Below are positions 44,248 to 57,202 of a stretch of 64,000 bases of DNA, in pieces. Positions within the stretch are counted from its first letter, which is position 1; the number at the start of each line of letters is the position of its first letter. Source of the DNA: Lachnospiraceae bacterium (GTDB lineage: Bacteria > Bacillota > Clostridia > Lachnospirales > Lachnospiraceae); NCBI GenBank assembly GCA_016284355.1, contig JAEEOQ010000137.1, positions 1 to 64,000 of the forward strand, given 5' to 3'. Below the pieces are notes generated by a model. The model ran no database searches. It saw nothing but the letters and a program-made list of their open reading frames with translations, and was not told the DNA's origin. A program made the position numbers and the translations under genes.

Positions 44248-44366
44248 GTCTTATGTAATGGATACATATGTAAAGATATATCATTTCGGCCTTGAGACCT
44301 TGCTTAGGTCACACAGAGAAATGTGCACCATGACTGCCTGATTGGTGCAAACGGGACTTTACATGG

Positions 44367-44394
44367 GTATGCATTTTACGTGCATGCTTTTTTT
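44367..44394 (+). terminator. Leader terminator upstream of the secreted-protein genes
   Basis: GTATGCA-TTTTACG-TGCATGC + T7. Confidence 0.6.
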
Positions 44395-44397
44395 GTA

Positions 44398-44416
44398 TCC
44401 ATCTATAAGATGGAGG
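44398..44416 (+). promoter_or_regulatory. SD-sequestering hairpin
   Basis: TCCATC-TATAA-GATGGA; 3' arm overlaps GGAGG before ATG 44423. Confidence 0.5.
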
Positions 44417-44422
44417 TCGCGT

Positions 44423-46873
44423 ATGAAAAGGAAAAAGACATTACTTCTTGGTGCGGCTGTTTTACTTATCGCCGCAGCTTCTTTAGTCTCAGTTAAGTTA
44501 TTTGTATCTGCTTCTGATACAAACAAGCTTGATGTGAGCCTTATCAACTACGAGAACAGTACCATTACTTTTTCTTCTAAGCAAAAAGACAGCGTGCTGT
44601 ATATCTCATCAAACGGAAAGTCCGCCTGGGAAGAGGTTCCGGGAACCTTTAGCGGAGGGACTTTAGATCTTGATATCTCATGGATATCCACAGCTAAGTC
44701 GTACAAATTATATTTTAAAGGAGACGTAAGCAGTTCTGTTAATATGGTAACTCTTCCAAAGCAGAGTACAAGCCTTAAGGTTAAGTATCTGCCGGCATCA
44801 GACAAGCCTTTTAGCGTTACCGGAGCAGGAAACCGCATCGTTCAGTACAGAAAAGACGGAACAGACGAGTGGTCTCTTTACTCAGACGCTCTTTCAAATG
44901 AAGATATAAGCTACCTTAAGGGCAACGGAGCCACCCTTTATTTCAGACTTATGCCTGTTATCGGAACCGGCGTAAACGCTGCGGGCGAAAGACCGGGCAA
45001 GGAAGTTGCGGTTAAGATCACTGCTAAGAAAGATGCTCCTTCCGTTAATGTTAACGGTTCAGGCTTTTACATGGCACTTACAAGCAAAATGAGCTACAGA
45101 GTATGCAGCATCGACGCTAAAGGAAATGTGCTTTCTGATAATATCCCTTGGGTTAAGGTAAGCGCAAGCAAAAACTATATGCTTAAAGACATTGCTCCTG
45201 CCTGCATGCTTTCAGGTACTGCAAATGTTACAAGCGAAAATGTAGCGATCCAGTTTAAAACAAATGCCACCTCATCTGCTCAGGAATCAAGAGTGACTAC
45301 CTTAATAATTCCTGCTCAGAGAATCGCTCCGACATTAGAAGAATCAGGGGCATCCCTTTCCTATACAAGCTCTACCACCTGCGAGCTTACAGTTAAAGGT
45401 GCAGGCGGAAAATATCCTTATGAATACGCAATCATAGATTCAGATGACTACAACGCAGGCATCTTTGATTATGAAGATATAACCTGGACAAAGATCGAGA
45501 ATAACAAAGCTGTAAGCTTTAATAATAAGAAGGCTCCTTCCGGAAGCCACATTTATATAAGAAAGGCTGCGGAAGGTAATTACGGCGATGAAAACTATGC
45601 GATAGCCTCAAAAGAGCTTGAGATAACCGACCATGCGGGCCTTAGCTACCCGGGTCAGATAAGCGCAGGCAGTGTTACAAACATCAGCGGATACGCAGGA
45701 AGCATTAACACCGGCGATTACGGTATCAGCAAAGAGTTTACATTATACAGTTACACAAAGACAACTGTTACCGGTCTTACATTTAAAGATGTATACGGAA
45801 ATGAAGTTGGCAGTGTAGCAGTTACCAGCAGCGCAAGCAAAAACAAGAGCGGAAGCGGAAACAAGGCTTATATCATTACCACAAAGATAACTTCAACAGA
45901 AGGCCTTGATAATAACACCGCGGCTCTTGGAAATAAACTTTACGGAACCATCACTCTTGCAAACGGAGAGAAGATCGAGAGTACAGATACCACCGGAATA
46001 ACACTTACTCTGTATAAAGCAAGCAAGGTTTCAAATCCTCTTGCAAAGGATAAGAGCCTTTACGGAAAGTATTTTGAGCATTACAAGACCTCATTTGACA
46101 GAGTTTACCTTTCAAACGAAAAGGATGATGATGCATTTTTCAAGTTCCTTATCGAGTTTGGCTCGGATGATGTAAATGCAGGCAAGGTAAGCAGCATTAG
46201 CTATGACGGATATGTTCTTTCACTTAAAGAGTATAAGGCCGGCTCCTCATTTGACAGCGCAGAAGAGAGCGCATATGAGGCTAACCCTGCAGATGCTATG
46301 ATCGCTTACGAAGACTATGTTAACGATGAGGGCGATAACGCAAGAAGAGCTTACGTTACAATCCATGCAAACAGATTTGAAGGAAGCGACGCGATCACAA
46401 AGATCGGCGAAAAAGTTCCTTTCATAATCAAGCTTGGAAGCGGCGAGACATTATATAATAAGGTTTATATGAACCTTGTTAAGACAGCGATCATAGAAGA
46501 TGCACCTATGGCATGGACCATGACAGAAGGAGAACTTACAGAAAGCGCCACAAAGACAAACTACGATGACAAGGGCAACAAGACAGGCACAGATACGAGC
46601 GTTGTAAACGATATCGTATTTACCCTTAAGAAAATGAACAGCACTTATAACGTTGCGGTAAGCGATGTTACCTGGAACGGTAAGTCAATACTTTACTCGG
46701 CACAGGTTGCGGGAGATGAGATTGTTATTGTTCTTTCAAATGCAAAGCTTAACACGCTCTCAAGCGGCACCGGCGGAAGCCAGACCGCAAATGTGGTCAT
46801 TGTTTTCTCAAACGGATACAAGATCGACGCGGGATGCAAACTTACTATATTAAAGAAAGCTGTTAAAGACTGA
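44423..46873 (+). CDS. Large secreted protein (paralog of next gene)
   Basis: Signal peptide MKRKKTLLLGAAVLLIAAASLVSVKLFVSA; repeats shared with downstream ORF; start placed at ATG after GGAGG. Confidence 0.8.
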   Translation: MKRKKTLLLGAAVLLIAAASLVSVKLFVSASDTNKLDVSLINYENSTITFSSKQKDSVLYISSNGKSAWEEVPGTFSGGTLDLDISWISTAKSYKLYFKGDVSSSVNMVTLPKQSTSLKVKYLPASDKPFSVTGAGNRIVQYRKDGTDEWSLYSDALSNEDISYLKGNGATLYFRLMPVIGTGVNAAGERPGKEVAVKITAKKDAPSVNVNGSGFYMALTSKMSYRVCSIDAKGNVLSDNIPWVKVSASKNYMLKDIAPACMLSGTANVTSENVAIQFKTNATSSAQESRVTTLIIPAQRIAPTLEESGASLSYTSSTTCELTVKGAGGKYPYEYAIIDSDDYNAGIFDYEDITWTKIENNKAVSFNNKKAPSGSHIYIRKAAEGNYGDENYAIASKELEITDHAGLSYPGQISAGSVTNISGYAGSINTGDYGISKEFTLYSYTKTTVTGLTFKDVYGNEVGSVAVTSSASKNKSGSGNKAYIITTKITSTEGLDNNTAALGNKLYGTITLANGEKIESTDTTGITLTLYKASKVSNPLAKDKSLYGKYFEHYKTSFDRVYLSNEKDDDAFFKFLIEFGSDDVNAGKVSSISYDGYVLSLKEYKAGSSFDSAEESAYEANPADAMIAYEDYVNDEGDNARRAYVTIHANRFEGSDAITKIGEKVPFIIKLGSGETLYNKVYMNLVKTAIIEDAPMAWTMTEGELTESATKTNYDDKGNKTGTDTSVVNDIVFTLKKMNSTYNVAVSDVTWNGKSILYSAQVAGDEIVIVLSNAKLNTLSSGTGGSQTANVVIVFSNGYKIDAGCKLTILKKAVKD

Positions 46874-46890
46874 TAAGGAGGAAAAAGACT

Positions 46891-48030
46891 ATGAAAAAAG
46901 TATTTATCATCTGTATGGTTGCGGTAATAATGTCGCTTTTCTTCCTTGCAGGAGGAAATAAAGTTAAAGCGGAAGGCGCCGGAGAGATTGAAGTTACAAA
47001 GATCGATTACAGTAATCTTACTGTATGTATCGACACTGCCGGCAACAACATCTGCTATTATTCAAAAGATAAGAATAAGTGGTATGAGCTTGAATATATA
47101 AGAGCTGCAGGCGGAGATCTTATCATGGACATTTCGTGGACAAATGCAAATGCAGATACCAAGATTTATTTTAAGGGCGATAAGAACGAAAAAGTGGTAA
47201 CGCTTACTCTTCCTAAGAAGAATGCAGCATTAAAATGCAAATTTGATTCTGCTGACGGAAGTCTTGAATTTGATGAGACAGAAGATGCAACGCAGTTTCA
47301 GTGGAAGAAGAGTACTGATACTGTCTGGACTACTGTTTCGTTAAACGAGTCTAGCGCCTCCTTTAAAAACTTTGTAAACAGCCTTGAAAGCCTTCGGTTT
47401 AAAGGTGCCAAGATCATCGTAAGAACGCCATACCAGAACGGAACCGGCATTCTTGATACCGGCGCCAGAGTAAGCAAGGAAATTACAGTAATGATACCCA
47501 AAAGGGCAAATGCTCCGAGTGTCAGCGTAAACCTTACAAAGCTTACGGTAAACACAAACGATACTTTAGAATATTCCCTTGACGGCGGACTTACATGGAC
47601 AGACTGCGAAAAGAACATGGCTGTAAGTGATATACTTGGCGGCAGAGCAAGCGGTACTGTTAAAATAAGAAAGGCAGCAACTGAAAAAGCAGGGTATTCA
47701 AAGACTGCAACTCTTGTGATCCCTGAAAGAGCAGCGGCACCTGCGGGAGTATCTCATTATACGGAAAACAAGATGACGGTATTGCAGATAAACGAAGCAA
47801 GCGTTCAGGATCCGTATGAGTATGCGGTCATTAAACCGGGATATTCCTTTGACGAGACCACAAGCCCGTGGAGAGGCATATCTTCATCAAAGCCGGTTAA
47901 GATAAATAAGACGACAGCTCCGGCAGGTTCGATCATATGTGTAAGAAAGAAAGGAAAGACAGCTAATGCCGCAAAGGGCATAGCACTTACCCTTCCGAGC
48001 AAATATACACAGATCGTTGTAACAGAATAA
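46891..48030 (+). CDS. Secreted protein, paralog of upstream gene
   Basis: Signal peptide; shared ISW..(K)xYFKGD..xVTLPK and PYEYAxI...AP(A/S)GSxIxxRK segments. Confidence 0.8.
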   Translation: MKKVFIICMVAVIMSLFFLAGGNKVKAEGAGEIEVTKIDYSNLTVCIDTAGNNICYYSKDKNKWYELEYIRAAGGDLIMDISWTNANADTKIYFKGDKNEKVVTLTLPKKNAALKCKFDSADGSLEFDETEDATQFQWKKSTDTVWTTVSLNESSASFKNFVNSLESLRFKGAKIIVRTPYQNGTGILDTGARVSKEITVMIPKRANAPSVSVNLTKLTVNTNDTLEYSLDGGLTWTDCEKNMAVSDILGGRASGTVKIRKAATEKAGYSKTATLVIPERAAAPAGVSHYTENKMTVLQINEASVQDPYEYAVIKPGYSFDETTSPWRGISSSKPVKINKTTAPAGSIICVRKKGKTANAAKGIALTLPSKYTQIVVTE

Positions 48031-48216: not shown

Positions 48217-48245
48217 TTGACATATGTTTTTTTTTTGTGTAGAAT
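48217..48245 (+). promoter_or_regulatory. SigmaA promoter of opp operon with T10 tract in spacer
   Basis: TTGACA-17 bp-TAGAAT. Confidence 0.75.
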
Positions 48246-48342
48246 AGCACTTAAGTATGACGAGACGATGCGAGAGGAAAATGACATACTTTAGCGCGTT
48301 GAAGTGGTACTGCAAAATATCTTGAAGGAGAGGATAAAGATT

Positions 48343-50514
48343 ATGAAAAAAAGACTTTTTAGCTTGGTCCTTGCCGCTGTCATGGTACTTTCATTAGTAG
48401 CCTGCGGTAAGAAAGCAGACAACACTCCTGTTGTTAATGTCGAGGATACTTCAAAGACTCCTGAGACAAACAACACAGAGACACCTTCTACAGGTGATGA
48501 AACAACAGCTCCTGTTGCTGACGCAGACGTTGAATACGTTCGTGGCGACGACGAGGAAGCATACGAAGCAGCTCTTGGCGGATTCGGTGCATTAAATGCA
48601 GCCGGTAACTCTGCTGAGAAGCCGGATGACAGATTTGTTCTTTTTGCTCAGGCTGAGGCAAATCTTCTTGGATCATTCGTTATGATCCCAACTACTACAC
48701 AGGGTGGTGCTTATTCTATTTCTAGAGTAGCTCCAAGAACAGTTCCTTACGTACAGTGGGGAAATGATGATGACCGTGTAAAGGGTCTCGTTATTTCTGA
48801 CGAGTTCATTACTCCTGCTGAAAGAGAAGAGCTTCTTGCTCAGTGGGCAGCCGCTGTTAAGGGTGAGGGTACATACGATCCTATCGCATACCTTACAGGT
48901 AAGGGTCACACAATTCAGAAAGATTACACTTTAACATTCCAAACAGCTCCTGTTACTCTTGACTGGCTCAATACTTCAAGCCAGGCTGATACAGAGATCA
49001 CAGTTAACACTGTAGAAGGTCTTGTTGAGTACAACAACCTCGGACAGATGACTCCTGCACTTGCTGAGAGCTGGGAAGTTTCAGATGACGAGACAGTTTA
49101 TACATTCCACATTCGTAAAGATGCTAAGTGGTATACCTCAGAGGGTGCTGAGTATGCACCTGTTACAGCTCACGACTTCGAGGCAGGCTTCCATCACATG
49201 CTTGATACAAAAGCAGGTCTTGAGTGGCTTATCGATGGCGTAGTTAAGGGTGGTACAGATTACTATGCAAACGGTGGCAGCTGGGATGAAGTTGGTTACA
49301 AGGCTGTTGATGATTATACACTTCAGGTAACTCTTGAAAAGCCTGTTTCTTACTTTATGACAATGCTTACATACTCATGCTTCCTTCCAATGTGCGAGTC
49401 ATTCTATAAGGCTCACGGCGGTGTATTCGGTGTAGATGAGTATGCAGCAGCAAGTGCTGATACAAACACATATACATTCGGTAACGCAGCTGATGTTTCT
49501 TCACAGGTTTACTGTGGACCATTCCTTATTCAGAAACTCCAGAAGGAATCAGAGATCTACCTTGTAGCTAACAAGAACTACCACAGAAAAGACACTGTAG
49601 TTCTTAACTCTATCAAGTGGGTATATGATAACGGTGAGAACCCTGATGCTCTTTACAATGATACAGTATCAGGTACATACGCAGGTATCGCTCTCGGTCT
49701 TCCTGCTCTTCTTGAGAAGGCTAAGGCTGATGGAAACTTTGATAAGTACAGCTTCGTAACAGATACAACATCTACATCATACTTTGGCGGTCTTAACCTT
49801 AACCGTGGTACCTTCGCTCTTGAGAGTGGTGCTTGTGCTACACCTAAGGATGAGAAGGCTAAAGTTGATACCAACACAGCTCTTAACAACCTCAACTTCC
49901 GTAAGGCAATGCTCTATGGATTCGATAAGTCTACATGGAACGCTGTAACTCGTGGTGAGGATCTTAAGAACGCAAACCTTAGAAATATGTACACATCTCC
50001 AAACTTCGTACAGCTTTCAGCTGATACAACAGATGCAGCAGGTCATACATTCCCTGCAGGTACATTCTACGGTGAGATGGTTCAGTACTACTGCGATCAG
50101 GCAGGTCTTGGCATCAACGTAGCCGACGGTGTAAACGGTTGGTACAATGTTGATCTTGCTAGACAGTCTCTTGAGGCTGCTAAGGCAGAGCTTGGCGATT
50201 CAGTTAACTGGCCAATTCAGATCGATGTAGTTTACTACTCAGGTTCTGATTCATCTACAGCTCAGGGTAATGCATACAAGAAGGTTATGGAAGATGCCCT
50301 TGGTGCTGAGAATGTAGTTATCAACCTTGTTGAGGCAACTACTTCAGAAGACTTCTACGCTTGTGGTTACAGAGCTGCAAACGGTGAAGCTGGTAACTTT
50401 GATATGTTCTATGGTTCAGGTTGGGGTCCTGACTACGGTGATCCTTCAACATATCTTAACACCTTCCTTGGTGAGGGCGCAGGATATATGACAAAGGTTA
50501 TCGGTCTTTTCTAA
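48343..50514 (+). CDS. Oligopeptide ABC transporter substrate-binding lipoprotein, apparently circularly permuted
   Basis: Lipobox LSLVACGKK; SBP_bac_5 motifs PALAESWEVSDDETVYTFHIRKDAKW; C-terminal-type segment located at N-terminus. Confidence 0.88.
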   Translation: MKKRLFSLVLAAVMVLSLVACGKKADNTPVVNVEDTSKTPETNNTETPSTGDETTAPVADADVEYVRGDDEEAYEAALGGFGALNAAGNSAEKPDDRFVLFAQAEANLLGSFVMIPTTTQGGAYSISRVAPRTVPYVQWGNDDDRVKGLVISDEFITPAEREELLAQWAAAVKGEGTYDPIAYLTGKGHTIQKDYTLTFQTAPVTLDWLNTSSQADTEITVNTVEGLVEYNNLGQMTPALAESWEVSDDETVYTFHIRKDAKWYTSEGAEYAPVTAHDFEAGFHHMLDTKAGLEWLIDGVVKGGTDYYANGGSWDEVGYKAVDDYTLQVTLEKPVSYFMTMLTYSCFLPMCESFYKAHGGVFGVDEYAAASADTNTYTFGNAADVSSQVYCGPFLIQKLQKESEIYLVANKNYHRKDTVVLNSIKWVYDNGENPDALYNDTVSGTYAGIALGLPALLEKAKADGNFDKYSFVTDTTSTSYFGGLNLNRGTFALESGACATPKDEKAKVDTNTALNNLNFRKAMLYGFDKSTWNAVTRGEDLKNANLRNMYTSPNFVQLSADTTDAAGHTFPAGTFYGEMVQYYCDQAGLGINVADGVNGWYNVDLARQSLEAAKAELGDSVNWPIQIDVVYYSGSDSSTAQGNAYKKVMEDALGAENVVINLVEATTSEDFYACGYRAANGEAGNFDMFYGSGWGPDYGDPSTYLNTFLGEGAGYMTKVIGLF

Positions 50515-50551: not shown

Positions 50552-50580
50552 CACAGGGAGACAATTTGTGTCTCCCTGTG
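50552..50580 (+). terminator. Intergenic hairpin between SBP and permease (attenuator / 3' stabilizer)
   Basis: CACAGGGAGACA-ATTTG-TGTCTCCCTGTG perfect 12 bp, poor U-tract. Confidence 0.6.
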
Positions 50581-50665: not shown

Positions 50666-52249
50666 ATGAAAAAGTACTTGTTCAAACGTATACTGTTCTC
50701 TATCTTTTCGCTTCTGGTTGTTGTCGGAGTAGTTATGATCTTGGTTTATTCGCTTATTGAAAGAAGCGTTATTTTCCAGACCGATGATATTTGGAACAAG
50801 AAGAGTAATAACGACAGGGCAGTATATGAATATGCCCAATATCAAAAATATGGTTATTTGGAGTATGTAGACTACACATCCTTTGTTAGGGATAAGTATG
50901 TCGAAAAATACGGGGAAGATTATTACACACAGTCAGATTATCTTTTAGATAAAGATATCGTTCAGAAGGCTGACGCCTTTATGGACAACGAGACTGTTAA
51001 AGAGTTTATCGACTATTATAACAAAAAGGGTTACACTTTTAGTTATTACAAGCCTATTACTTTTAAGTCCGGTAAAGTTAAACCGGGTGGTAAAGGATAT
51101 TTTATTGCATCATACGAAAAAAGCGTCTTTACAAGACTTGGAAGATATATCGCAGGTCTCATTACTGTTGAGACCACAAAAGATGTAAAAGATCCTGAGC
51201 TTACAGACAGATATATCAGAATAGAAAAAGATCCGTACGGCGGCGGTTTTGCAGTAGTCGGTTCGGGAACACGTCATAAATATCTTATTTATTTTGATGG
51301 CAGATTCCCTTATATCCATCAGAACTGGTTACACCTTAACCTTGGTGTTTCCTATACTGCATACAGAGGACAGGAGATTTCTTCTGTTATCAGCAGCCCT
51401 ACAGGTGAGCTTATTACAAAGAATGTTCAGTTCCCAACTATGTTTGGTACAGACGAATACATAGAGAGTGCTATTGATTTCCACTCCCTTACATATAATG
51501 AGGCTGAGATATCTGACGCTGAAAAGGCTCAGTTTACTGACAGATATACAGTTTACTCATATAACAAGGCCGGTCTTTCTATGCTTCAGACTTCCTTTGT
51601 TATAGGTATCATCGCTACCATTATCGCTTATGCTCTTGGTCTTCCTGCAGGTATGCATATGGCAAGAAGAAAAGACAAACTCGGCGATAAGCTTGGTAAC
51701 GCATATATTATTTTCATTATGGCAGTTCCTTCACTTGCATACATCTTTATGTTTGCAGCTATCGGAACCACATTATTCCATCTGCCATATAAGTTTGCAA
51801 ATGCAAACGTTAAAATACTTGCATATATTCTCCCTGTTATTTCACTTGCACTTCCTCAGATCGGAAGTCTTATGAAATGGATGAGAAGATATATGATCGA
51901 CCAGATGAACTCTGATTACGTTAAGTTCGCAAGAGCAGAGGGATTATCTGAGAAAGAGATCTATAAGATCCATATCTCAAGAAATGCAATGATCTACCTC
52001 GTTCAGGGTATCCCGGGTTCTATCCTTGGATGTCTTACAGGTGCCATCATCACAGAGCGTGTGTACGGCGTACCCGGCGTAGGTAATCTTCTTACAAATG
52101 CTTTAAATCAGCATGATAACGGAGTAATTGTAGCATGTACGTTCTTCTATACATCGCTTTCAATTATCTCGATCATACTCGGAGACCTTCTCCTTGCTAA
52201 GTATGACCCACGTATTTCACTTTCAGAAGAAGGAGGCGGCGGACGATGA
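50666..52249 (+). CDS. Oligopeptide ABC transporter permease (OppB-like) with large extracytoplasmic insertion
   Basis: C-terminal MetI domain FARAEGLSEKEIYKIHISRNAM...VYGVPGVGNLL; insert between TM1 and MetI core. Confidence 0.92.
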   Translation: MKKYLFKRILFSIFSLLVVVGVVMILVYSLIERSVIFQTDDIWNKKSNNDRAVYEYAQYQKYGYLEYVDYTSFVRDKYVEKYGEDYYTQSDYLLDKDIVQKADAFMDNETVKEFIDYYNKKGYTFSYYKPITFKSGKVKPGGKGYFIASYEKSVFTRLGRYIAGLITVETTKDVKDPELTDRYIRIEKDPYGGGFAVVGSGTRHKYLIYFDGRFPYIHQNWLHLNLGVSYTAYRGQEISSVISSPTGELITKNVQFPTMFGTDEYIESAIDFHSLTYNEAEISDAEKAQFTDRYTVYSYNKAGLSMLQTSFVIGIIATIIAYALGLPAGMHMARRKDKLGDKLGNAYIIFIMAVPSLAYIFMFAAIGTTLFHLPYKFANANVKILAYILPVISLALPQIGSLMKWMRRYMIDQMNSDYVKFARAEGLSEKEIYKIHISRNAMIYLVQGIPGSILGCLTGAIITERVYGVPGVGNLLTNALNQHDNGVIVACTFFYTSLSIISIILGDLLLAKYDPRISLSEEGGGGR

Positions 52250-53223
52250 CAAATAACGAAGCTTTTGAAAACGTTAACGAAGAAGAGCTTTTTAGATTCC
52301 TTCGTGAAGATGAAAAGGTTTCTTCCGAGAAGATCGTTGCTCCTCGTTATTCTTATTGGAAGTCGGTTTTCCGTGTGTTCTTTAAGAAGAAGAGTAATAT
52401 CTTCATGCTTGTAGTACTTGTTTTACTTTTACTTTCAGCATTTATCTGTCCTCTTTTCATGCCATATGACATGATGGAGAACATTACAAACCCTGCCACA
52501 TATAACCTCAGCCCTGCGGCTGCTATGAAGTATTTTGGCGGTTTTTCATTCAAGTGGATGCTTGGATCAGGCGGAATGGGTAATTCCATTTTCTACGGAA
52601 TTTTCTCATCAGCACGTACATCACTTATGCTTGCATTCATCTGTGCTGCCATAAACATGTTCCTTGGTATTGTCCTTGGAGCTGTTTGGGGATATTCAAA
52701 GAAGGTTGACGCTGTTATGCTTGTTATATACAACATCGTAGCAAACGTTCCACTTATCCTTCTTGTTACCGTTATTGTTTACATTATCGGTACCGGTTTC
52801 TGGAGCCTTATTTTCTCCCTGTGTGTAACAGGCTGGCTTGGTATAGCATTTTTCTTCAGAACCCAGGTTATGATCATTCGTGACCGTGAGTACTCACTTG
52901 CATCAAGATGCCTTGGTACTCCGCTTCCACGTATCATTACCAAGAATATCCTTCCTTTCCTTACTTCGGTAATAGTTACAATACTTGCAACAGAGCTCCC
53001 ATCATACATCAGTATGGAAGTTTACCTTTCATTCCTGGGCCTTGGTCTTAGTGCTGAGCTCCCATCACTCGGTCGTATGATCTCTCTTGCGCAGTCAGCA
53101 TTCCTTATCTATCCATGGGAATTCTGGCCACCGGTATTTTTTGCTTCAGTATTAACAATCCTTCTCTATCTGCTTGGTCAGAAACTTGCTGACGCATCAG
53201 ATCCGAGAACACACATGATGTAG
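52246..53223 (+). CDS. Oligopeptide ABC transporter permease (OppC-like)
   Basis: MetI domain; SYISMEVYLSFLGLGLSAELPSLGRMIS; ATGA overlap. Confidence 0.93.
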   Translation: MTNNEAFENVNEEELFRFLREDEKVSSEKIVAPRYSYWKSVFRVFFKKKSNIFMLVVLVLLLLSAFICPLFMPYDMMENITNPATYNLSPAAAMKYFGGFSFKWMLGSGGMGNSIFYGIFSSARTSLMLAFICAAINMFLGIVLGAVWGYSKKVDAVMLVIYNIVANVPLILLVTVIVYIIGTGFWSLIFSLCVTGWLGIAFFFRTQVMIIRDREYSLASRCLGTPLPRIITKNILPFLTSVIVTILATELPSYISMEVYLSFLGLGLSAELPSLGRMISLAQSAFLIYPWEFWPPVFFASVLTILLYLLGQKLADASDPRTHMM

Positions 53224-53234
53224 TGAGGTGGCAT

Positions 53235-55013
53235 ATGGAAAATAATGAGAAAAAAGTGCTGCTCTCACTTAAAGACGTAGACGTAAAGTTCAACGTTCGA
53301 GGCAGAACACTTCAGGCTATTAGAAACGTATCACTTGATGTATACGAAAATGAATCACTTGCGATCGTTGGTGAGTCAGGTTCAGGTAAATCCGTTCTTA
53401 CCAAGACCTTTGCAGGTATGCTTGATTCAAACGGATATATCTCACACGGAAGCATTATCCTTTCCGATGATGAGATCAGTAAAACAGACGCAGTTCTTAC
53501 CGGCAGAAATTTAAGTATTTTTAATAAGTTCTTTGATTTCCTTAACAAGAACAGCAATCTTGAAGCAGCCGGTGAGGATTACAAGAATATCGTACTTCTT
53601 GAAAAGCAGATCAATAATGCGAAAAACCTTACAGAAGATGAAGTAGCAGAGTTTGAGGCAAAGATAAAGGAAGTACAGGATAAGATAGTAGACAGGACCA
53701 ACTATCTTTGGACTCTTGATAAAAAGAATGCAGAAGATGCAAAAGAGATTGAGAAGATCAATGCAAAGCTTGCAGAATATGAAGACCGTATCAAGAGAAT
53801 AAGCGATGAGCGCAGTGCCCTTGAAGCAAAGAGAGTGGAAGAGTTTAAGAACAACACTGCTAAATATGATCAGGACCGCGCTAAACTTGCTTCCCTTAAA
53901 GAAGAGTATGCTAAAAAGGTTGCAGCAGCAACCATCAGCGCCGAAACTAAAGAGCGTAATAAAAAGATCGCTTATGAAGTAGTTCTTTCAATAGGTCGTT
54001 ATCCTTTCAAAGATCAGATCAGATTTGAAAGACAGCTTAAAAAAGCATTCCTTACAGCTCTTAAGTTTGGTGAAGACCTTACTGACGCAGAAGTACTTAA
54101 CAAAGTATTTGAGACAAGCGTTTTCCGTGTGGAGTATCGTTCTTTTGACGAGGCTACTCAGACACTTCACGGCTATGCTATCATAGACTGTGCAAAGATC
54201 AAATATACAAATGACTGGCAGAAGATCAGAGGTTGCCGTATAGCTACCGTATTCCAGGATCCTATGACCTCTCTTAACCCTGTTATTACTATCGGTAAGC
54301 AGATCATGACTGTTATCCTTAAGCACCAGAAGTGCTCTAAGGATGAGGCAAAAAGACGTACTATCGATATTATGGGCAAGGTTGGTATCCCTGATCCTGA
54401 GAAGAGATTTGACGATTATCCATTTGAGTATTCAGGTGGTATGAGACAGCGTATAGTTATTGCTATCGCGCTTTCATGTCAGCCTAAGATCCTTATCTGT
54501 GACGAGCCTACTACAGCGCTTGACGTTACTATCCAGGCTCAGATCATCAGACTTATAAAGGATCTTCAGAAAGAACTTGGATTTACTACAGTTTACATTA
54601 CACATGACCTTGGTGTCGTAGCAAATGTAGCTGAGAGAGTAGCTGTTATCTACGGCGGACAGATCGTTGAGATCGGTACTGTAGAAGAAGTATTCTACGA
54701 TCCAAAGCACCCTTATACCTGGGCACTTCTTTCCTCACTTCCTCAGCTTGCTGAAAGAGGATCGGAGCTGTTCTCAATTAAGGGTACACCACCTTCACTT
54801 TACAATAAGATCGTGGGCGATGCATTCGCTCCTAGAAACCCATATGCTCTTGCTATCGACCTTGTAAAGGAACCACCTGTATTTAAGGTCAGCGAGACAC
54901 ACTACGCAAAGACATGGCTTCTTGATCCTAGAGCTCCTAAGATCGACCTGCCTGCAAACATTCAGAATCTTCACGAAAAGATGCTGAAAACATATGTGGA
55001 TTTCGGAAGTTAA
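53235..55013 (+). CDS. Oligopeptide ABC transporter ATP-binding protein (OppD-like) with long coiled-coil insertion
   Basis: [41 protein letters not shown]; insertion about 53480-54225. Confidence 0.93.
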
Positions 55014-55024
55014 GGAGGCAAAGA

Positions 55025-55969
55025 ATGGATCAGAATGAAAAGAAAGTACTGTTATCTGTTCAGAACCTTGATGTAGCTTTCAAAAAAGGCAAGAAGGCCT
55101 TTAAGGTAATAGATAACGTAAGTTTTGATATTTATAAAGGGGAGACCCTTTCACTCGTTGGAGAGTCAGGTTCAGGAAAGACAACCATCGGCCGTGCCAT
55201 TGTACGTATCAACCCATGTACAGCAGGTGCTATCTACTTTGACGGCAAGAAGATTTCAGGTAAACTTTCCCGTAAAGAGGACCGCGACGTAGTTCGTAAG
55301 ATCCAGATGATCTTCCAGGATCCATCTGCTTCATTAAACGAGCGTGCTACCATCGAATACATTATTTCAGAGGGCTTATACAACTTCCATCTTTTCAAGG
55401 ATGAGAAGGACCGCGTGGCTAAGGTAGAAGAGATAACAAAGGAAGTAGGACTTCTTCCTGAGCACCTTACCAGATACCCTCATGAGTTCTCAGGCGGACA
55501 GAGACAGCGTGTAGGTCTTGCAAGATCTATCGTTATGGAGCCGGAGTTTATCATTGCCGATGAGCCTATTTCAGCTCTTGACGTTTCTATTCGTGCTCAG
55601 GTTCTTAACCTCCTTAAGAAGTTCCAGAAGGAGAGAGGACTTACATACCTGTTTATCGCTCATGACCTTTCAATCGTTAGATTTATAAGCGACCGTATCG
55701 TCGTTATCTACAAAGGAAGGATCATGGAGATCGCGGAAGCTGAGGAGCTTTTTGCTTATCCTCTTCATCCGTATACAAAGTCTCTTATCTCTGCGATCCC
55801 GGTTCCGGATCCTCGCATTGAAAAAGAGAAAAAACTTCTTGTTTACGATCCTTCTATGCATGACTACAGTACAGATGAGCCTAGCCTTGTAGATCTTGGC
55901 AACGGCCATATGGTATTTGGTAATGCCAAAGAGATCGAAGAATACAAGAAGATCAGATTTGGTAACTAA
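55025..55969 (+). CDS. Oligopeptide ABC transporter ATP-binding protein (OppF-like)
   Basis: [43 protein letters not shown]. Confidence 0.95.
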
Positions 55970-56062: not shown

Positions 56063-57202
56063 ATGAAAGAAAGATCGAATTTTAATATCATTATCAGATT
56101 AATACTTTTTGTAGTGCTTATCGCAGCAGGTGCTGCCGCATTTTCAATAACGTTTATGCAGCTTACAAAGCAAAAAGACGGTATTCAGATAATAGATGAA
56201 TATCCAAGCTCTGATGCAAAGCGCTACGGCCTTGATTTTGAGTTTTATTATGACCTTCAAGGGGAAAACAGCGAGATAAAGGAGCAAAAGAAAGCTCTTG
56301 CAGAGCTTTACTCTAACAGGCTTATGTACCTTTATAAGCTTACAGACCCTGAAAATGAATATGAAAACATGAGTAATATCGCCACCATAAATAACAATGC
56401 AGGTACCCCTGTTGAGGTGGACGAGACCTTATATAATATGCTTGAAAAGGCCCATATCTTAACAGGAGCATATAAGTCATACAATATGCTATCAGGAGCC
56501 TTTTATAAGTATTATACAGAGTTTATTTACGCAGATGACCCGCTTAGTGATGATCCTATAGTTAACGCTGAGAGCAGAGCTCTTATTGCATCTGTACTTG
56601 ATGCGGAAACAAAGAGCGGAGCAGAGCTTATGTTTAACGAGGCTGATCACACAGTAACCTTATATATTTCAAACGGTTATAAGAGCAACGAATACACAGA
56701 AGATATGCCTGTTATAGACCTTAATTACCTTAGAAACGCATTTATAGTAAATGACTTAAAGAATACCATTGAAGGTAAAGGCTATGAAAAGGGATTTATC
56801 CTTACAAAGGACGGTGTTTCTGCAGCACTTTCATCCTTTAATTCAGGCGATTATGTGTTAAAGGGAAAAGACGATAAGGAAGATACTGTTGCCATAACCG
56901 GCGGCTTGGTGGCCTTTACACTTAATCCATATGATGCTAAAAACAAGGCCATAGGAGAATATGAGATAACCGATGCGGATGGAAATACATACTTTAGAAC
57001 TCCTAATATCCTTTATACAGAGCTTGGAGTAACAAACAGGGTTATTTCTTCCATGACACTTGATACAAAAGGAGATGCGGTAAACTGTAAGCTTGCAGGC
57101 ATGACATTTAACACAGATCTTGCAGGCGGAAAAGATGTTAAGAAGTCCGCAGAGGGCATAGAAAGAGCCTACGGAGTAAACGTATATTACAACGAAAACT
57201 AA
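56063..57202 (+). CDS. Exported/membrane-anchored ApbE-like protein, divergent
   Basis: N-terminal TM; NMSNIATINNNAGTPVEVDETLYNMLEKAHILTGAYKSYNMLSGAF resembles ApbE; FNSGDYVLKG. Confidence 0.55.
   Translation: MKERSNFNIIIRLILFVVLIAAGAAAFSITFMQLTKQKDGIQIIDEYPSSDAKRYGLDFEFYYDLQGENSEIKEQKKALAELYSNRLMYLYKLTDPENEYENMSNIATINNNAGTPVEVDETLYNMLEKAHILTGAYKSYNMLSGAFYKYYTEFIYADDPLSDDPIVNAESRALIASVLDAETKSGAELMFNEADHTVTLYISNGYKSNEYTEDMPVIDLNYLRNAFIVNDLKNTIEGKGYEKGFILTKDGVSAALSSFNSGDYVLKGKDDKEDTVAITGGLVAFTLNPYDAKNKAIGEYEITDADGNTYFRTPNILYTELGVTNRVISSMTLDTKGDAVNCKLAGMTFNTDLAGGKDVKKSAEGIERAYGVNVYYNEN

Follow-up and report, generated by a model that had tools for sequence, protein, structure and literature searches.

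The closest described relatives of the lipoprotein considered here are the pneumococcal oligopeptide-binding proteins AmiA, AliB, AliC and AliD, which are its top matches in the PDB by phmmer. In AliD, domain I is composed of residues 29-63, 191-296, and 583-617, domain III (lobe 2) spans residues 297-582, and a terminal helix at 622-652 packs on lobe 1 (PMC11192437). The N-terminus of the bound peptide is held by D501 and W498 in AliD and by D503 and W500 in AliB (PMC11192437). The linear order of these canonical proteins runs from the N-lobe through domain III, returns to domain I, and ends at the C-terminus; the lipid anchor of such proteins would be carried by domain I of lobe 1.

The gene under study lies in a 64,000-nucleotide stretch of Lachnospiraceae DNA (the window) and encodes a family-5 (cluster C) oligopeptide-binding protein with a circularly permuted order. 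The canonical linear order does not hold for this protein, in which the C-terminal block comes first, and it is therefore a variant and not a plain member of cluster C. Its family profile, binding motif, operon, and predicted fold all place it with this cluster. This arrangement was proposed in a first-pass annotation of the sequence, whose open reading frame, coordinates, and quoted motifs all agreed with a re-reading of the DNA. The features of the gene and its operon are as follows.

48217-48245, + strand: sigma-70-like promoter TTGACA-17-TAGAAT, 11/12, from a consensus scan that is by itself no evidence of function
48343-50514, + strand: permuted oligopeptide-binding lipoprotein gene, 723 aa; ATG at 48343, preceded by AAGGAGAG at 48324; stop codon ends at 50514
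48343-48405, + strand: lipoprotein signal peptide with lipobox LVAC and Cys21, read from the sequence; the lipobox is kept in most relatives
48406-48525, + strand: flexible T/D/E/P-rich tether, residues 22-61 (about 40 aa), from the sequence and comparison with relatives
48526-48903, + strand: C-block, the canonical C-terminal segment placed at the front, residues 62-187, by homology
48904-50511, + strand: N-block, the canonical N-lobe (domains I and II) plus most of domain III, residues 188-723, by homology
50422-50433, + strand: W694-G-P-D697 motif, equivalent of AliD W498/D501, which clamp the peptide N-terminus in AliD and AliB (role: PMC11192437)
50552-50580, + strand: 12-bp hairpin, terminator- or attenuator-like, between the binding-protein gene and oppB
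50666-52249, + strand: OppB permease, 527 aa; a long insert precedes BPD_transp_1
52246-53223, + strand: OppC permease, 325 aa
53223-55013, + strand: OppD ATPase, 596 aa; an insert of ~240 aa occupies about residues 79-321
55025-55969, + strand: OppF ATPase, 314 aa

Swapped order of the binding protein and its operon

The lipoprotein sequence runs from the signal peptide and LVAC through '...EAYEAALGGF...AEANLLGSFVMIPTTTQGGAYSISRVAPRTVPYVQWG...' and then 'TLDWLNTSS...' to its end at 'GWGPDYGDPSTYLNTFLGEGAGYMTKVIGLF*', with a core of 662 residues after the signal peptide and tether. Phmmer and profile searches of the PDB align it with AliB in two stretches that have exchanged places: residues ~190-717 match AliB 4-497, and residues 81-169 match AliB 518-607, the latter being followed in the C-block by the region of the old C-terminal helix and then by the junction. 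AmiA and AliC give the same two swapped stretches, and with a family profile the AmiA blocks reach E-values of 1.4e-111 and, for the second block, 3.6e-8. Dozens of canonical proteins match the front block with their C-terminal segment, at E-values from about 1e-8 to 4e-16. The moved segment corresponds to the canonical C-terminal ~110-125 residues, which now stand ahead of the N-lobe. The Pfam domain SBP_bac_5 (PF00496) covers residues 236-713 with 154.8 bits against a cut-off of 32.4 and ends at the cut, matching profile positions 2-365 of 368; the lipoprotein stops ~10 residues later. As this model is complete up to the cut, the front block, which has no significant Pfam family in the Pfam scan, represents its missing downstream part.

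The relationship to the canonical proteins becomes continuous when the sequence is rotated. Scored against a profile made from 29 canonical proteins (length 664), the lipoprotein in its native order gives two matches of 395.8 and 34.1 bits, whereas rotation at the junction gives a single match over profile positions 41-646 of 664 with 447-448 bits. A scan of rotation points places the maximum at the junction of the C-block and the N-block (448 bits vs 396 in native order), with controls carrying a shuffled C-block reaching at most 402 bits. Rotation improves the best single match in all 67 of the 67 permuted proteins, by 46-74 bits. The rotated lipoprotein can be aligned with canonical proteins over its whole length, and in this alignment the old C-terminal helix leads almost directly into the old N-terminus. 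Separate profiles built for the front block (C) and the remainder (N) allowed the order of homologues to be classified; where both blocks were found, C preceded N in 13 proteins (permuted) and followed it in 51 (canonical), with no mixed forms among them. Both blocks are homologous to the canonical protein, complete, and swapped, and rotation turns them into one continuous match, as in a circular permutation. The swapped matches and the gain on rotation bear out the original reading that the canonical C-terminal segment has moved to the front. No such segment is present elsewhere, and the front block is by homology this segment and not an unrelated domain.

Two permeases and two Opp-family ATPases are encoded directly downstream, as in an Ami/Opp-type importer. 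Where the flank is long enough, almost all permuted loci continue into oppB-C-D-F; L070 is the exception seen. The only correction to the first-pass annotation concerns the hairpin, which is present at 50552-50580 and terminator-like: it does not mark the end of the operon, as oppBCDF lies downstream. Binding proteins are commonly made in excess over their transporter, and since the hairpin separates the binding-protein gene from oppB, it would allow such an excess here.

Both OppB and OppD carry insertions. In OppB, an insert of ~200 residues places BPD_transp_1 from residue 325 onward, and the OppB/DppB matches in the PDB are only 306-339 aa long. The OppD insert (53457-54185) is partly coiled-coil-like and lies between Walker A and the remaining ATPase domain; it is common to the mollicute OppD profile and the OppDs of permuted operons and absent in the canonical G651. 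An origin of this insert together with the permutation was considered and rejected: the insert is covered by the OppD profile of the mollicutes, whose OppA profile has the canonical order, making insert and permutation separable events. Upstream, at 44342-48030, are two adjacent secreted proteins of 843 and 379 aa with no Pfam family above cut-off, which look related by common motifs such as 'DISW' and 'FKGD'. Following oppF, positions 56063-57202 encode a protein of 379 aa that has a membrane segment at its N-terminus and only a sub-threshold ApbE-like match (E 0.029).

Predicted structure and anchor geometry

A single-sequence AlphaFold2 run (pLDDT 34.5) was superseded by a run based on an alignment of 67 permuted sequences only, with no templates, which predicts a compact fold with pLDDT 93.4 and pTM 0.89. 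The front block is mostly above pLDDT 90 in this model, the lowest ten-residue mean being 75. Foldseek ranks AliB, AmiA, and AliD at the top (TMq 0.66-0.68 over ~546 columns), a score that is reasonable because this sequential aligner, which is not permutation-aware, must omit a fifth of the query. The predicted protein is a two-lobed periplasmic-binding fold, full and confident, with the front block folded in, as the permutation proposal had anticipated.

The position of the cut bears on the side from which the protein is anchored. An offset taken from the AliB alignment, in which chain W474 corresponds to W500, places the cut at ~523-544, within domain III. Because the cut, and hence the new N-terminus, lies in this domain, the lipid anchor of the permuted protein would sit on lobe 2 in place of lobe 1. 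The first-pass annotation had suggested that permutation relocates the anchor, and mapping of the cut on the AliD domains (PMC11192437) points the same way. Among near permuted relatives with a lipobox, the tether has a median length of 43 aa (range 6-63), as compared with a median of 7 aa in the mostly streptococcal-type canonical set; a longer tether as a feature of permuted proteins is only suggestive, since the canonical L102 and L110 likewise have tethers of ~40 aa.

Anchoring varies within the permuted group. Permuted proteins without a lipobox occur in L033, L037, L056, and L086 (Spirochaetal labels) and in L041, L042, L044, L046, L052, and L055. These carry a plain signal peptide, for example ...SVFAQG or ...VSALAE, and are possibly soluble and unanchored. 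In L070:2901-7013 and L065:2-2374, N-terminal SLH modules replace the lipobox, with a BspA-type LRR_5 and three SLH in L070 and two SLH in L065; these may be wall-anchored peptide-binding proteins.

Distribution and origin of the permuted order

A contig scan yielded 77 loci with 57-73% identity, and the same permuted order is seen in all that are long enough to judge. Full-length copies stop near '...GDPSTYLDTFLGEGAGYMTKVIGLF' or a close variant, and 12 more distant genomes are also permuted with the same C-terminal end. The 77 loci are labelled Lachnospiraceae, Oscillospiraceae, Erysipelotrichaceae, Solobacterium, Christensenella, Spirochaetales/Sphaerochaetaceae, and Victivallales, and permuted loci come mostly from herbivore rumen or gut samples. 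The permuted order is also carried by G280 (4.5 Mb, 2 contigs) and by G061 and G098 (20-30 contigs, 100% complete). In the order-level survey, 12 of 392 genomes match at E<=1e-60 and all 12 are permuted, and in the class-level draw 5 of 16 matching genomes (E<=1e-40) have the permuted form. No permuted form was found in the class of G1092 among the 22 matching genomes (E<=1e-50) of 327, and the plasmid collection contained no match. Contigs labelled Spirochaetales/Sphaerochaetaceae and Victivallales hold close permuted relatives (L033, L037, L040, L043, L045, L050, L056, L065, L086, and L088), a pattern that suggests that the operon has moved across phyla within gut communities, or that some of the contigs are misbinned.

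A maximum-likelihood tree was built from the columns of the N-block alone, which keeps the rearrangement out of the tree data; 200 bootstrap trees were computed, at which the bootstrap was not fully settled. All 24 of the 24 permuted rows fall in one clade (bootstrap 100, SH-aLRT 98, recovered in 100% of the 200 bootstrap trees), so the numerous homologues with this order belong together and the permutation apparently arose once. When the tree is rooted on more distant canonical proteins, the sister of the permuted clade comprises canonical streptococcal-type Ami/Ali proteins (G1092 and kin), L155, and G651. G1092 would be streptococcal-type by its similarity to Ami/Ali, and the exact placement of L102 (G651) is unsure because of its long branch.

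Duplication followed by fusion and truncation is the usual model for circular permutation, and by analogy the lipoprotein family may have taken this route. No tandem or half-gene intermediates were found among the classified proteins. The 1379-aa open reading frame of L070 was considered as an intermediate and rejected, being composed of LRR_5, SLH, and the permuted protein. L146, in a streptococcal-type genome, has two canonical binding-protein open reading frames in one short locus; such tandem paralogues are the raw material that permutation by duplication needs. General models of circular permutation invoke duplication or fission-fusion (PMC3320104).

Interpretation and comparison with known systems

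We consider it very probable that the gene encodes a functional oligopeptide-binding lipoprotein of an Ami/Opp-type importer that underwent one natural circular permutation in a Bacillota ancestor. The old C-terminus, where the terminal helix packed against lobe 1 finishes, would have been joined almost seamlessly to the old N-terminus in domain I, and a loop of domain III (lobe 2) would have become the site of the new termini, just past '...GYMTKVIGLF'. The two-lobed binding-protein fold would be retained, with the lipid anchor and the longer flexible tether hanging from lobe 2 instead of lobe 1, as judged from the domain mapping. The peptide N-terminus would be held by the conserved W-G-P-D motif. 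W-x-x-D (W694/D697) is present in 69 of 69 near and 13 of 13 profile-classified permuted proteins, and with no examined member lacking the motif, these proteins very likely still bind peptides. The conserved gene order predicts that peptides are passed to the OppB-C-D-F transporter encoded next door.

A permuted order could also be mimicked by an assembly or binning artefact in which two genes or a rearranged contig are read as one protein. The source genome is 80% complete in 157 contigs and most near relatives are metagenome-assembled, but 77 loci from independent studies share the order and, where complete, the end, and the order recurs in the well-assembled G280 (2 contigs), G061, and G098, independent genomes that exclude an assembly error; the gene is moreover a single continuous open reading frame that has a promoter-like site, a hairpin, and an operon of its own. 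The probability left to an artefact is negligible. Another reading attaches a canonical binding protein, cut short at its C-terminal side, to an unrelated domain in front of it; this would account for a front block lacking a significant Pfam family and for a protein that finishes where the Pfam 'Middle' domain does. The homology of this block to the AmiA C-terminal segment (3.6e-8) and to dozens of canonical proteins argues against such a fusion, as does an AlphaFold2 model that folds as one body with high confidence, and we regard it as very improbable.

It is somewhat easier to imagine, though still improbable, that the permutation is real and the protein is a peptide sensor or surface binding protein instead of a transport component. 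A few members (L070 and L065) have SLH modules and no lipid anchor, and the fetched flank of L070 lacks oppB-F; nearly all others, the source gene included, lie directly upstream of an intact oppBCDF, and the peptide-site residues are conserved. With the permuted importer component as the preferred reading, a tentative extension, which we think rather unlikely, is that the change was adaptive: attachment through lobe 2 by a longer leash (or, in some members, by S-layer modules) might alter presentation to, or docking on, OppB/OppC and so define a distinct, horizontally spread class of lobe-2-anchored importers in animal-gut bacteria.

Our search of the open-access literature found no report of natural circular permutation in ABC-importer binding proteins; the papers found on circularly permuted binding proteins concern engineered biosensors or are unrelated. 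Such a permutation thus appears undescribed in the open literature searched. It may have been overlooked through the Pfam 'Middle' model, which matches permuted and canonical orders alike, so that annotation hides the rearrangement. The permuted family represents a stable variant of the binding protein and shows that the lobes can be reconnected without loss of the fold, the binding motif, or the operon; the anchor-bearing side could change as well. The saposin/swaposin proteins, DNA methyltransferases, and transhydrogenases (PMC3320104) show the same kind of sequence relationship, but they are unrelated families, none of them an ABC-transporter binding protein.

Among binding proteins, pneumococcal AmiA, AliB, AliC, and AliD share with the lipoprotein their fold elements, ~30% identity, the terminal segment, W-x-x-D, and the Opp-type importer role; they differ in their canonical order, their anchor on lobe 1, and their short tether. 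The transporter encoded next to the lipoprotein is similar to the Ami system and also to the Opp system of mollicutes. The mollicute Opp system (NCBIfam MMSYN1_0165-0169) has an OppD with a long insert that matches over its full length with 695 bits, and its OppA matches the lipoprotein in pieces. The OppA profile is nevertheless canonical, with the N-block at 40-737 and the C-block at 794-878 of 896, and the lipoprotein scores 120 bits against NF043077, below the curated cut-off of 650. G651 (L102/L134), from the same class and the sister clade of the permuted group, has the same gene order of binding protein, oppB, C, D, and F; its binding protein is in canonical order and its OppD is without the ~240-aa insert. 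A conserved partner transporter together with a canonical sister group constitutes a natural experiment on the role of the anchoring lobe in docking and peptide delivery.
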